From Actinoplanes sp. L3-i22 (GTDB taxonomy: Bacteria > Actinomycetota > Actinomycetes > Mycobacteriales > Micromonosporaceae), in assembly GCF_019704555.1 (NCBI RefSeq), contig NZ_AP024745.1, positions 8,316,501 to 8,380,500 on the forward strand: a stretch of DNA of 64,000 nt, read 5' to 3'. Under the pieces are notes generated by a model. The model saw only the letters and a list, made by a program, of their open reading frames with translations, searched no databases and was not told the origin of the DNA. The first letter of the stretch is position 1. The number at the start of each line of letters is the position of its first letter. A program made the translations under genes and the position numbers. Below, piece after piece: positions 22,519-62,549 of this stretch.

Positions 22519-22681
22519 AAGATCACGATCAAGTGCTTTTTGCCTCGGTCCGCCGGGGTACAGATCGCCGCTCCCGCGGGGACCCTTCCGGGCCTCGCAG
22601 GGCGCGGGGCGCCCAAAAACGCGAGGCCCTCCAGGGCGACGTCCGAGGGTGGTTGCGGTTCAAAAGGACCCAAGATCAAAA
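22519..22681 (-). repeat. Dispersed intergenic element, copy A
   Basis: One of five copies of a conserved element in this window. Here it lies in reverse orientation between the convergent lysR-type and clpC genes. Conserved blocks in its own orientation: GAACCGCAACCACC, CGGACGTCGCCC, GGGCGCC-CGCGCCC, CGGAAGGGTCCCCGCGGGAG, CGGACCGAGGCAAA. GATCTT-type sequences flank both ends. The main hairpin reads GGGCCTCGC/GCGAGGCCC. See the findings for structure and covariation. Confidence 0.92.
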
Positions 22682-22698
22682 CCCGGCAGCCAAACGAC

Positions 22699-22731
22699 GA
22701 AGGGCGCCAGGCTTTTCGCCTGACGCCCTTC
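22699..22731. terminator. Bidirectional terminator between lysR-type and clpC
   Basis: GAAGGGCGCCAGGC, loop TTTTC, GCCTGACGCCCTTC: a 14-bp stem with one mismatch. It lies between convergent genes, next to repeat copy A. Confidence 0.85.
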
Positions 22732-22789
22732 ATGTCCGATATTTCAGGGCATCGGCGCGCTCACGCCGTACCCAAGCCGGATTTTGATC

Positions 22790-25372
22790 TTAAAGCGAAC
22801 TCAGCGACGCCGACTCGATCTCGAACGTCAACTCGTCGTCCCGGGCGTCCACCTTGACCGTCTGACCCGGCGCCAGATCCGCCGCGAGCAGCATCTTCGA
22901 CAGCCGGTTGTCCAGCTCCCGCTGGATCGTCCGGCGCAGCGGCCGCGCCCCGAACTCGGGCTGGAAGCCCCGGTCCGCGAGCCAGTCCACCCCGGCCGTG
23001 GTGATCTCCAACCGCACGTCCTGGGCGTGCAGCCGGCGCCGCGTCGACTCCAGCAGCATCTCGGTGATCTTGCGGAGCTGATCCGTCTCCAGCTGCCGGA
23101 AGATGATGATCTCGTCGATCCGGTTGATGAACTCCGGCCGCAGCTGCTCCTTGAGCCGCCGCTCGATCCGGTCCTGCAGCTCGTCCCCGGCCTCGCCGCC
23201 GCCGAACCCGACGCTCCGGGTGGTCCCGTTGATCAGGTCCGACCCGAGGTTGCTCGTCATGATCAGCACGGTGTTCTTGAAGCTCACCGTGCGGCCCTGG
23301 CTGTCGGTCAGCCGGCCGTCGTCCAGCACCTGGAGCAGCATGTTGAACACGTCCGGGTGCGCCTTCTCGATCTCGTCCAGCAGCACCACGCTGTACGGCC
23401 GCCGCCGCACCGCCTCGGTCAACTGCCCGGCCTCGTCGTAGCCGACGTACCCGGGCGGCGCCCCGACCAGCCGCGACACCGTGTGCCGCTCCTGGAACTC
23501 GCTCATGTCCAGCCGGATCATCCGGTCCGAGTCCCCGAACAGCGCCTCCGCGAGGGACCGCGCCAGCTCGGTCTTGCCGACCCCGGTCGGCCCGAGGAAC
23601 AGGAAGCTGCCCACCGGCCGCTCCGGGTCACCCAGCCCGGCCCGCGAGCGGCGCACCGCCTCGGCGACCGCGCTGACCGCGTCCTCCTGGCCGATCACGT
23701 GCTCGTGCAGGTGCTGCTCGAGCCGGAGCAGGCGGTCCCGCTCGGCCTCGGTCAGCTGCGCCACCGGGATGCCGGTGGCCCGGGAGACCACCTCGGCGAT
23801 GTCCGCCCCGGTGACCCGCGGGACGCTGTCCCCGCTCGCGCCGGAGCCGGCGATCTGCTCCTTCAGCTGGTTGATCCGGTCCCGCAGCTGCGACGCGACC
23901 TCGTAGTTCTCCGCGTGCACGGCCTGGTCCCGGTCCCGGCTGAGCTGCTCCAGCTGCCGCTCCCGCTCGCGCAGGTTCGCGTCCGGCGTCTTGACCCGTA
24001 GCCGGACCCGGGCGCCGGCCTGGTCGATCAGGTCGATCGCCTTGTCCGGCAGGAACCGGTCGGTGATGTACCGGTCGGAGAGCACCGCCGCGGCGTCCAG
24101 CGCCTCGTCGGTGATCCGCACCTGGTGGTGCGCCTCGTAGTTGTCCCGCAGCCCGCGCAGGATCGCGACCGCGTCCTCCACGCTCGGCTCGCCGACCAGC
24201 ACCGGCTGGAACCGCCGGGCCAGCGCCGCGTCCTTCTCGATGTGCTTGCGGTACTCGTCCAGCGTCGTCGCGCCGATCACCCGCAGCCGCCCGCGGGCCA
24301 GCGCCGGCTTGAGCATGTTGCCGGCGTCCATCCCGCCGCCCTCGCCGCCGCCACCGGCGCCGACCAGGGTGTGGATCTCGTCCATGAAGACGATCAGGCC
24401 GTCCCCGGACGCCTGGATCTCGTCGATGATCTTGCGCAGGCGCTCCTCGAAGTCGCCGCGGTACCGCGTACCGGCGACGAGGCCGGCCAGGTCCAGCTGG
24501 ACCACGCGCTTGTCCTGCAGGGTGAGCGGCACGTCGCCGTCCACGATCCGCTGGGCCAGGCCCTCGACGATCGCGGTCTTGCCGACGCCGGCCTCACCGA
24601 TCAGGACCGGATTGTTCTTGGTCCGCCGGGACAGGATCTCCACGGCCTGCTCGATCTCGTCGGCCCGGCCGATCACCGGGTCGATCTCGCCGCGCCGCGC
24701 CACCTCGGTCAGGTCCGTCCCGAACTGCTCCAGCGTCGGCGTCGGGGACGCGCTCCGCCCGCCGCCCCGGGAACCGCCCTGGCCGCCGCCGGTCGGCCCG
24801 GCCGGCACCTCCGGATGCGGGATCGCCCGCGGGTCGAGCCGCCCGGCCAGCAGCCGCCCGGCCGCCGAGTCGGTGTTCAGGCCGAGCGCCATCAGGATGT
24901 GCTCCGGCCCGATGTAGGAGGCGCCGACCGCCCGGGAGATCTGCAGGCTGTCCAGCAGCGCGCGCTTGGCGGCCGGGGTCAGCGCGACCTGCTCGGTCCG
25001 GTCCGCACCCATGTCGGCGCGCCGGTTGGCGGCGGCGATCCGGGACGGCTCGTCGCCCAGCGCCGCCTCGATCTCACCGAGCAGCGCCTGCGGGTCGGTG
25101 CCCGCGCGCCGCACGGTCTGCTTCATCGGCTCCTGCTGCAGGACGGCCCAGAGCAGATGGTCGGTGTCGAGGTCGGCGAGGCCGCCGTCGTTCTGCCCGA
25201 GATCCGCGGCGCGCCTCGCGGCGTCGGCCAGCACCTGCCGGGCGTCGTTGCTCATGTAGCGCGCGATATCGATCCGCTGCGCCGCCCGGCGCGGCTCGGC
25301 CGCACCGAAGAAGCGCGCGAACAGGTCGTCCCACTGACCGGGGCCACCCGGCCCCAACGGTCCGATGCTCAT
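22790..25372 (-). CDS. ClpC-type AAA+ unfoldase (HSP100)
   Basis: An 860-residue double-ring AAA+ protein. A short lead (GQWDDLFARFFGA) precedes Clp N-terminal repeats at about 38-175 and a Gly/Ser linker at 190-212. AAA-1 has Walker A GEAGVGKT (259-266) and Walker B VFMDEIH (about 328-334). A short middle domain carries a UVR-like segment (EVASQLRDRI, near 491-500). AAA-2 has GPTGVGKT (594-601) and VVLLDEIEKAH. SVGF at 720-723 is at the position of the ClpP-docking loop, so it probably feeds ClpP; this and the short middle domain favour ClpC over ClpB. GGGGAAGAGAG precedes the ATG. A TTGA-N11-TCAA dyad lies about 100 bp upstream. Confidence 0.9.
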   Translation of the reverse strand: MSIGPLGPGGPGQWDDLFARFFGAAEPRRAAQRIDIARYMSNDARQVLADAARRAADLGQNDGGLADLDTDHLLWAVLQQEPMKQTVRRAGTDPQALLGEIEAALGDEPSRIAAANRRADMGADRTEQVALTPAAKRALLDSLQISRAVGASYIGPEHILMALGLNTDSAAGRLLAGRLDPRAIPHPEVPAGPTGGGQGGSRGGGRSASPTPTLEQFGTDLTEVARRGEIDPVIGRADEIEQAVEILSRRTKNNPVLIGEAGVGKTAIVEGLAQRIVDGDVPLTLQDKRVVQLDLAGLVAGTRYRGDFEERLRKIIDEIQASGDGLIVFMDEIHTLVGAGGGGEGGGMDAGNMLKPALARGRLRVIGATTLDEYRKHIEKDAALARRFQPVLVGEPSVEDAVAILRGLRDNYEAHHQVRITDEALDAAAVLSDRYITDRFLPDKAIDLIDQAGARVRLRVKTPDANLRERERQLEQLSRDRDQAVHAENYEVASQLRDRINQLKEQIAGSGASGDSVPRVTGADIAEVVSRATGIPVAQLTEAERDRLLRLEQHLHEHVIGQEDAVSAVAEAVRRSRAGLGDPERPVGSFLFLGPTGVGKTELARSLAEALFGDSDRMIRLDMSEFQERHTVSRLVGAPPGYVGYDEAGQLTEAVRRRPYSVVLLDEIEKAHPDVFNMLLQVLDDGRLTDSQGRTVSFKNTVLIMTSNLGSDLINGTTRSVGFGGGEAGDELQDRIERRLKEQLRPEFINRIDEIIIFRQLETDQLRKITEMLLESTRRRLHAQDVRLEITTAGVDWLADRGFQPEFGARPLRRTIQRELDNRLSKMLLAADLAPGQTVKVDARDDELTFEIESASLSSL

Positions 25373-61952: not shown

Positions 61953-61989
61953 AGGGTGTTCCCTCCCGGCGGGTGTCCACGCCCGCGCG

Positions 61990-62170
61990 TCGGCTGTCAC
62001 GAGCGGCCGGAGTCTCCTGACTCCCGGATCGCCGTTCCCCGCTCGCCTTCCGGCCCGGACGGGCCGTGGCGGGCTGCCGCCGCAGCGGATCGCTCCCCGG
62101 TCACAGTGGCGGGACCGTCCCGGACTCGCACCGGGTTCCTCCGCGACCGCTCGGCGATCACTCTTTCCTA
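61990..62170 (-). ncRNA. Cobalamin riboswitch
   Basis: On the minus strand, GGAACCCGGTGCGAGTCCGG followed by GGTCCCGCCACTGTGA (62101-62139) is the conserved B12-binding core. Downstream GGGAGTCAGGAGACTC and GGCC (about 62005-62025) give the second conserved box. It ends about 40 bases before the GTG of the chelatase gene, whose GGGAGGG ribosome site could be sequestered, so translational repression by adenosylcobalamin is likely. Confidence 0.96.
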
Positions 62171-62332
62171 CCGCCGGTCCGCCCGTCAAACAGCGACCAG
62201 GCAGATCACACGCCCGCCGCGCCCGGCAACCCCGCCTGCCACCTCAGCCGCAGCCGACAGTGTCGGCCCGGCCCGCGCGCCGCTCGCGCTCCCCGGCTGG
62301 CACTCACGGTCCTTCCCGGCCCTCGAAACAGC

Positions 62333-62549
62333 CCTCAGCGCCGGCCTGCACCGCGGGACGCGGCTGGGCGGTGACCCGGCAACCGGGTCGCGTGGGTTCT
62401 TTTGAACCGTGACCACCCACGGACGTCGCCCTTGCGGGTCTCGTGTTCTGGGCGCCCCGCGCCCTTGCGAGACCCGGAAGGGTCCCCGCGGGAGCGACGA
62501 TCCGGACCCCGGCGGACCGAGGCAAAAATGAACTTGATCTTGAAGTAGG
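62333..62549 (+). repeat. Dispersed intergenic element, copy E (long form)
   Basis: The conserved module runs from about 62388 to 62549, with shared upstream sequence (CCCTCAGCGCCGGCC, GCGGCTGGGC, CAACCGGGTCGCGTGGGT) as in copy C. The main stem is a perfect CGGGTCTCG/CGAGACCCG with inner GGGCGC-CCC-GCGCCC. A third possible pairing, GGGTCC with GGACCC, is complete here. It lies between the B12 riboswitch promoter region and citrate synthase. Confidence 0.93.

Follow-up and report, generated by a model that had tools for sequence, protein, structure and literature searches.

Folded repeats near gene ends in Actinoplanes share positions between species and are homogenised within species

A family of short repeats in Actinoplanes has a conserved structure and a preferred orientation relative to genes, occupies positions shared between species, is homogenised in sequence within species, and loses linkage steeply within ~16-25 nt. 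The preferred reading, with a probability of roughly 0.5, is that these are folded-strand repeats at gene ends rewritten in place by short-tract exchange; a role as an RNA boundary is suggested less firmly. The usual readings of short bacterial repeats are mobile DNA and conserved regulatory sites. Shared sites together with within-species likeness are not easily accounted for by ordinary transposition. Inherited places with no ortholog signal left (26 pairs) offer a naturally occurring case in which exchange among very short, scattered bacterial sequences can be measured.

The window is a 64,000-nt stretch of the Actinoplanes sp. L3-i22 chromosome, in which an earlier note had reported five copies of the repeat. 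Their positions and strands were all correct, and the named blocks kept their order and spacing across an alignment of the five. Copy A (22519..22679, -) has its tail end ~17 nt from the stop of a LysR-type gene (21528-22502, +), and its head points at a ClpC-like gene (22790-25372, -), the two genes being convergent. Copy B (27437..27606, +) has a degenerate hexamer tail. The final GATCTT of copy C (33788..33945, +) ends at 33942, which leaves ~8 nt to the stop-side end of an ORF (33950-34393, -). Copy D (39881..40034, -) scored 177 bits with the covariance model R1, the highest among the L3-i22 matches listed. Copy E (62388..62549, +) is flanked by a Mg-chelatase/VWA-type gene (59754-61952, -) and a citrate synthase gene (62728-63969, -). 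The 19-base core GGAAGGGTCCCCGCGGGAG, which comprises the 3' strand of helix P2 and hairpin P5, was located at 22571..22589 (-) in copy A, and the window core search placed it at 27522..27540 (+) in copy B, 33876..33894 (+) in copy C, 39930..39948 (-) in copy D, and 62476..62494 (+) in copy E. The copy limits given earlier agreed to ~10 nt, but the tail of copy B extends to TTGATCTT ending at 27606. The end words described for copies A and D were present as TTGATCTT at both ends of D and at the left end of A, but the right end of A reads TGATCTTG; the right-hand end word is part of the hexamer tail present in most copies. Allowing ≤3 mismatches, the 20-mer CGGAAGGGTCCCCGCGGGAG has five occurrences in the window where 0.14 would be expected, and five were reached in 0 of 100 shuffles. 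The 13-mer CGGACGTCGCCCT is informative only through its five exact in-register matches; at 2 mismatches it was no rarer than chance (13 in the window vs 11.75 expected).

Column conservation in 103 L3-i22 copies set the extent of the element (~147 bp) from ~80 nt before to ~66 nt after the first core base; its right edge (GATCTT) is sharp and the left one gradual. A branched hairpin is followed by a tail of tandem GANNTT hexamers, with at least two tandem units in 83 of the 103 copies and in 0 of 103 shuffled copies. The consensus fold has five helices, arranged as a long hairpin (P2-P4), a small hairpin (P5), and a short closing stem (P1). It was counted on alignment A4 (33 rows: the best match of each of 30 genomes, two second hits, and L142, a partial reverse-strand match of an element already in A4), which was aligned to R1, so the pair counts lean towards the structure of R1. 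Over 29 pairs, 93.8% of 932 cells were paired vs 36-47% when the structure was slid, both-sided changes were found at 17 pairs vs 8.6 in shuffles, and the covariation score was 0.320 vs 0.112, with 0 of 500 shuffles as high. In stem P3 of 105 copies, 83 of 945 cells were G.U and none A.C. Over all helices of A4, the counts were 50 and 18, the asymmetry being strong in P3 only. It was reversed in the helices as first drawn (P1, 17 G.U vs 55 A.C; P0, 29 vs 52), and the counted structure was redrawn by hand after P1 and P0 had come out poor in that first version. Wobble asymmetry and covariation point to RNA, and a folded single DNA strand could give both; the unit of selection would be a folded single strand, most likely RNA. 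By eye, no U run follows the hairpins, and the CGTC string sits inside helix P1 and is not a free tag. Reading the tail as coding sequence, from the ATG in GGCAATGAAG, was rejected because many L3-i22 copies, inspected by eye, have no ATG.

Covarying secondary structure is shared with the structured RNAs of Rfam, including HEARO, but the whole window gave no element match at the gathering score, and a permissive search of copy E returned chance-level matches only, far below the gathering scores. A known RNA family was rejected on these grounds, in line with the earlier remark that no named family was recognised; the titles and abstract openings searched in the literature contained no description of the repeat. 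A structured strand with a sharp right edge, then variable sequence, and the TTGAT-like words that some copies have at either end (the ISDra2 target is TTGAT) would suit solo omegaRNA-like scaffolds of a TnpB/IscB-type nuclease, whose 3' flank would be the guide and whose homing would both keep positions and homogenise copies. Such scaffolds are very improbable here: the nuclease search (PF07282, TnpB-like) found three genes in the genome with a single marginal R1 match near them (L212, 12.7 bits, E 0.025), on which ground a TnpB scaffold was set aside, and neither HEARO nor another Rfam family was matched.

The core at ≤2 mismatches was found 194 times in the 12.0-Mb L3-i22 genome and 0 times with a reversed-pattern control. 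The earlier estimate of hundreds per genome thus holds to the extent of these matches, and the search went well beyond the five copies. R1 gave at least 150 matches in this genome, all 150 scored at E ≤ 1.2e-36. With the same model, the family was present in 55 of 67 Actinoplanes genomes and matched weakly in 12 other Micromonosporaceae genera. Per-genome model counts are matches among 150 (L3-i22), 43, or 24 scored candidates, and copies of the N-masked A. liguriensis genome (G031) are undercounted. Plasmid and phage collections gave no match to copy D. From the genomes compared, the family, large, structured, RNA-like, and near gene ends, would be old and Micromonosporaceae-wide, and it is apparently undescribed in the literature searched. 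L3-i22 is a soil bacterium. For the alignments, 121 distinct core hits were reduced to 106 rows by removing rows with Ns, two masked A. liguriensis loci among them, and four chance matches in unrelated bacteria (L066, L086, L126, and L136). Alignment A2 has 105 rows and omits L095, in which another repeat takes the place of the 5' half; alignment A3 holds 40 of 50 rows picked for diversity. Subfamily II is represented by the genome G051.

Genes around the copies were called with a custom finder based on codon usage and trained on the same loci. Among 113 copies with both neighbours, none was called inside a gene, and both orientations occur on the chromosome, as reported earlier, but with respect to genes they are strongly non-random, with the tail facing the 3' end of an opposing gene in 87 of 103 L3-i22 copies. 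In the first sample, 18 of 113 copies did not face an opposing gene end. Convergent genes enclose 65 of the 103 copies, against a background of 20 convergent gaps among 171 intergenic gaps, and in 43 of 95 copies the distance from the core end to the opposing stop is 43-63 nt.

The repeat had been called a dispersed element, and with ~200 copies it is dispersed, but it is not simply scattered mobile DNA: positions are shared across species and sequences are homogenised within them. Many copies stood at the same places when orthologous intergenic regions were compared. All five R1 elements in a 400-kb stretch of G051 have an L3-i22 counterpart, and of the 12 L3-i22 elements in the same stretch, 5 lack an R1 match at the corresponding place in G051. 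In A. cyaneus, all four copies that map to contiguous L3-i22 sequence have a counterpart there, and an element is present at the place orthologous to copy A (L083). By eye, the inspected orthologous gaps that had no R1 match showed rearrangement in some cases and a diverged or remnant element in others. At the stretches corresponding to copy C in 12 relatives, where there is local rearrangement, R1 found no match. Both flanks and the orientation match in 26 L3-i22/A. cyaneus pairs. Sequence sets for gene orientation, orthology, similarity, linkage, and block typing consisted of copies with an intact core only, so the similarity and linkage figures are conditional on it. Identity over the 26 pairs was 0.691 for orthologs vs 0.693 for non-orthologs (permutation p 0.68); the smaller earlier set of 16 pairs, of which this is an enlargement, gave 0.784 vs 0.778 (p 0.09). 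Identity within species, from subsamples, was 0.823 in L3-i22 and 0.779 in A. cyaneus, and the flanks of orthologous pairs were 86.8 and 88.7% identical.

A conserved fold, conserved positions, and a location at gene ends are what an ordinary cis-regulatory RNA or terminator family would also have, one inherited vertically at each gene and kept alike within a species by tracking one trans-acting factor. This is improbable, since the AGTTAT block type after GATC is carried by two thirds of the L3-i22 copies (68 of 101) vs 0 of 69 A. cyaneus copies and differs between the members of 18 of the 26 pairs; with such counts, it is not credible that so many loci mutated independently to one block. None of five segments showed a significant excess for orthologs (lowest p 0.08), and the five neighbour proteins tested (copies A, C, and E) are unrelated products.

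Linkage between variable sites among the 103 L3-i22 copies fell from a mean r2 of 0.33 at 1-3 nt to 0.027 at 16-25 nt and 0.009 at 41-60 nt (1/N 0.0097), and is thus near background past ~16 nt, paired bases excepted. A P3 pair 34 nt apart had r2 0.93, and P3 pairs held r2 0.93-1.0 in 65 A. cyaneus copies. Typing succeeded for 91 of the 103 copies, in which the P4-loop and 3'-block types combined as 50/20/15/6. Recombination is incomplete: mean r2 was 0.028 at 91-130 nt (about three times 1/N), the index of association was 3.18, pairwise identity had an sd of 0.154 vs 0.076 in column shuffles, and shared runs averaged 10.1 variable columns vs 6.3. Kept places, no ortholog excess, and short-range linkage therefore argue for concerted evolution by short-tract exchange. 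Dispersed copies would be rewritten in place by gene-conversion-like exchange, perhaps anchored on the conserved core, and new sites may occasionally be seeded, copy C looking like one. RecA would not usually convert short tracts between 150-bp repeats that are ~86% alike. A stronger claim, that this is a new kind of genetic element, is doubtful: ~200 folded-RNA units would recombine like alleles of a sexual population at long-lived gene-end sites, each species re-sorting shared variants, long-range linkage surviving chiefly through base pairing, and a dedicated machinery doing the rewriting. More weakly, and by analogy, a transcript with the repeat in its putative 3' UTR might mark an RNA boundary where transcription units converge, shielding their 3' ends or lessening antisense read-through, as proposed for REP/BIME.

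Re-insertion of a non-autonomous MITE/REPIN-type element from an active species-specific pool into preferred sites such as gene 3' ends, replacing older copies, is unlikely. The sharp right edge and a tail close to stops (43/95 at 43-63 nt) resemble target choice, copy C seems to be a gain in the L3-i22 lineage, and inverted matches of at least 6 nt join the terminal 30-mers in 35 of 103 copies vs 9 of 103 shuffled. REPs, too, are reported in more than 100 intergenic copies per genome. Against re-insertion, none of 5253 pairs among the 103 copies is identical (maximum 97.7%), so there was no recent burst, and blocks stand at intermediate frequencies near equilibrium, which a few master copies would not give. 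The same place and orientation across species would need near-exact site specificity. As the earlier note had it, there are no long terminal inverted repeats, and no transposase of the type searched was found: the longest exact inverted match between end 30-mers was 8 nt, inverted repeats in the window copies are internal, and PF01797 (RAYT/Y1 transposase) had 0 matches in the L3-i22 genome and rang in five of the 14 controls. Exact left-half matches number 133 in this genome, and the first 100 all lay in whole elements, as judged singly by eye against core or model lists or on four extracted loci, and no parent autonomous element with the same ends was among them. A degraded IS or MITE was rejected for want of long terminal inverted repeats and of a parent element among the left halves listed, and a REPIN with RAYT because this genome has no PF01797.

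The mosaic structure of copies, the tandem hexamer tail, and an RNA-type fold with wobble asymmetry in P3 would also accord with a bacterial SINE-like retroposon, in which a reverse transcriptase copies RNA with template switching and leaves short-tract mosaics and a tandem-repeat tail. This is very improbable. RVT_1, the one model in the reverse transcriptase search, was found in six of eight element-rich genomes and in three of eight genomes with no R1 matches, and an RT-driven retroposon was rejected because two element-rich, single-contig genomes (G010, where 43 of 43 scored candidates match the model, and G022, where 41 of 43 do) had no match to it.

Concerted evolution by gene conversion is familiar from rRNA/tRNA-type gene families. 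The Actinoplanes repeats are likewise closer within species than orthologs are between species, but they are ~200 short dispersed copies, one per gene end, and linkage among their sites disappears over tens of bases. They are short, dispersed, and geneless inside like MITEs and degraded IS ends, but unlike MITEs they have no long terminal inverted repeats, no parent element was found among the left halves listed in the L3-i22 genome, and the wobble in P3 is strand-asymmetric. REP/BIME elements prefer gene ends. A REP unit is a 20-40-bp palindrome with a GTAG or CGTC end, whereas the Actinoplanes unit is a ~147-bp branched fold with a hexamer tail, in a genome with no Y1 transposase, unlike RAYT (TnpA-REP) systems. 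According to excerpts of the papers, REP/BIME/REPIN sequences have many intergenic copies, inverted doublets, and hairpins with compensatory changes, and they persist as a within-genome sequence population (PMC3116915, PMC3733652, PMC8049555); the Actinoplanes repeats resemble them in these respects, but with positions shared between species and sequences homogenised within them.

Copy A and a G051 copy (offset 182180) adjoin hairpin-plus-T terminators (by eye). At the 3' end, some A. cyaneus copies have a strong palindrome around the stop codon; in most other copies it is weak. Words like AAGATCAA occur ≤40 nt after the stop in 15 of 358 L3-i22 genes and 17 of 355 G051 genes, with an element core nearby in 3 and 2 of them, respectively; the word is therefore not confined to elements.

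The core shared by the five window copies, whose positions as first reported were confirmed, occurred 5 times in the window against 0.14 expected, far above chance. The earlier note had proposed a genome-wide search, and this was done for the 19-base core with <=2 mismatches over the whole genome of Actinoplanes sp. L3-i22 (12,014,766 bases, one contig) with the reversed pattern as control, giving 98 forward and 96 reverse matches and none for the reversed pattern. A covariance model of the element (R1), built from 40 copies, many of this genome, matched with E <= 1.2e-36 at 150 of the 150 places scored, so the elements number at least 150. 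The left half of the element had 133 exact matches; among the first 100 listed, 96 adjoined a core or R1 match, and the sequences fetched for the remaining 4 were all intact elements. Counted by eye, 3.82-5.37 Mb of the chromosome (1.55 Mb) held 2 of the 150 R1 matches listed versus about 19 expected if even.

The model search of other Micromonosporaceae, also proposed there, extended the family past this genome, weakly so outside Actinoplanes. At least one match with E <= 0.01 was present in 55 of 67 Actinoplanes genomes. In the family-wide sample, 34 of the 121 genomes, from 13 of the 44 genera, gave matches; 27 of the 34 genomes represented 12 genera other than Actinoplanes, whose matches were weak (best E 1.9e-10). 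Per-genome R1 counts are minimum values from limited numbers of scored candidates; they were 16-22 per 24 candidates scored in eight non-Actinoplanes genomes and zero in many other genomes. By eye, many of 22 loci compared had in common a stretch resembling (C)GGGAGC.ACGGTC and a tail resembling GATCTT. A scan of species genomes for the exact core gave, among the 80 stretches listed (L3-i22 itself possibly lying outside these), A. cyaneus and A. liguriensis only, plus four chance matches. The core had 138 matches in A. cyaneus, including 66 exact ones (reversed pattern, 2). Copy D (39881..40034, minus strand) matched nothing in the plasmid and phage collections, and no description of the element was found in the open-access literature searched.

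The suggested comparison of orthologous intergenic regions showed old positions, many of them shared between species. Over 400 kb syntenic with the relative G051, all five R1 elements of G051 matched an L3-i22 element in gap and orientation. L3-i22 has 12 elements there, seven within those five shared gaps and five without an R1 match opposite; four of these five unmatched G051 gaps, viewed by eye, held one diverged element, one remnant and, in two cases, neither. A second subfamily was seen by eye at three G051 loci, with P3 stems (part of the long stem of the predicted fold) of wholly different sequence that still pair. Where the flanks of A. cyaneus copies mapped to contiguous L3-i22 sequence (>500 nt, >80%), an L3-i22 element was present in 4 of 4 cases. 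Pairing of 64 of the 66 exact-core A. cyaneus copies with 103 of about 194 L3-i22 copies, for which about 34 pairs are expected if all sites are shared, gave 26 pairs agreeing in both flanks and orientation; seven further matches were one-flank and four had opposite orientation, as inverted doublets can give. Copy C (33788..33945, plus strand) is an exception to positional sharing: in the regions retrieved from 12 relatives, R1 gave no match at E <= 10. Its anchor was present in 11 of these, but with the left side rearranged, so the locus does not qualify as a clean empty site.

The flanks of the 26 pairs were 86.8% and 88.7% identical. The elements themselves were 0.691 identical, mismatched pairs 0.693 (p 0.68 by permutation), and an ortholog excess was significant in none of five segments (smallest p 0.08). 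Within species, likeness in subsamples was 0.823 for L3-i22 and 0.779 for A. cyaneus. A block with AGTTAT after GATC, mostly AGTTATTGGCCGCAGC, was typed in 68 of 101 L3-i22 copies and 0 of 69 A. cyaneus copies, counted by a pattern that misses at least two of the five rows typed as "other", which also have the block, after GGTC. The L3-i22 copy had the block and its ortholog lacked it in 18 of the 26 pairs. Of the copies typed in other genomes, all six of G051, G010, G035 and G022 had AGTKAT-related blocks, and the five of A. liguriensis and one of G014 had the other type. From this spread, both types appear to be old variants that each lineage has sorted anew.

Linkage and similarity were calculated for copies with an intact core, on which the figures are conditional. 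Mean r2 among 103 L3-i22 copies was 0.33 at 1-3 nt, 0.16 at 9-15, 0.027 at 16-25, 0.009 at 41-60 and 0.028 at 91-130 (1/N 0.0097), and stayed at 0.93 for one base pair of P3 whose partners are separated by 34 nt. The decay had the same shape in 65 A. cyaneus copies (0.22, 0.06, 0.04, 0.012 and 0.023 over the same distances; 1/N 0.015; P3 pairs 0.93-1.0). L3-i22 blocks about 50 nt apart were almost perfectly in equilibrium (counts 50/20/15/6 over 91 typed copies). Together, the decay, the equilibrium and the surviving P3 pairs fit extensive yet incomplete short-tract exchange between dispersed copies in which selection maintains pairing. Against full mixing are an index of association of 3.18 and a spread of pairwise identity twice that of column shuffles. 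None of the 103 copies were identical and 9 of 5253 pairs exceeded 97% identity; plain vertical descent does not fit the linkage and identity data, nor does a recent burst from few masters. The exchange is most likely gene-conversion-like and would rewrite copies in place. No Y1 transposase was found in the L3-i22 genome, TnpB genes were few and essentially unlinked to the element, and RVT_1 genes were absent from two element-rich genomes.

The conserved span of the 103 copies ran from about -80 to +66 relative to the first core base. On a 33-row alignment (best match of each of 30 genomes plus three more), the supported fold comprised helix P1 (4 bp), a long P2-P3 stem capped by helix P4 and, inside the core, the small hairpin P5. 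Pairing held in 93.8% of 932 cells (slid controls, 36-47%), and both sides had changed in 17 of the 29 pairs. G.U to A.C was 50 to 18 over all helices of this alignment. In P3, wobble on the element's strand over 105 copies comprised 83 G.U cells and no A.C, which argues, from sequence, that this strand folds and is under selection, as RNA or single-stranded DNA. The tail is made up of GANNTT-like units in a short tandem array; 83 of 103 copies had at least two in tandem, versus 0 of 103 shuffled tails.

Neighbouring genes were called, without curation, using a home-made gene finder. By these calls, 65 of 103 copies lay between convergent genes, the background in 400 kb of the genome being 20 of 171 intergenic gaps >60 nt. 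An opposing gene, its stop facing the element, was on the tail side in 87 of 103 copies. In 40 of the 87, at most 66 nt separated this stop from the end of the core, which places it about 20 nt or less from where the tail ends. An earlier sample from several genomes gave 95 of 113, with the stop 43-63 nt from the core's end in 43 of 95. Inverted doublets were present at L014, L016 and L027. From its place and fold, we tentatively suggest that the element may act as an RNA boundary between converging genes.

Other repeats were also seen. Left of the element at L004, L012, L018 and L025, clearest at L018, lay a further repeat containing a TGTGGATAAC-like word once or twice; such words resemble DnaA boxes. 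A. cyaneus L095, L110, L119 and L062 carried a different repeat, which contains the word AACGCCCATGAG(A/C)ACCAGC; at L095 it replaced the element's 5' half as a palindrome. The 400-kb G051 stretch contained long intergenic tandem arrays of REP-like hairpins (GGCTGG...GGCCCTAT...ATAGGGC...CCAGCC) at offsets 101961, 121993, 182180, 200933, 225930, 373971 and 393298, some adjoining the element. It also contained a 25-base intergenic motif, AAGATCAAGACCGATTTYCGGTACG, for example at offsets 351769 (-) and 230329 (+) and once 19 nt past a stop codon; AAGATCAA is common to this motif and the complement of the element's tail. In the window, a cobalamin riboswitch (RF00174, 67.2 bits; 62011-62140, minus strand) lies about 250 nt from copy E (62388..62549, plus strand), upstream of a Mg-chelatase/VWA-type gene (59754-61952, minus strand), and 46348-56901 (minus strand) was called on codon usage as one uninterrupted reading frame about 10.5 kb long.
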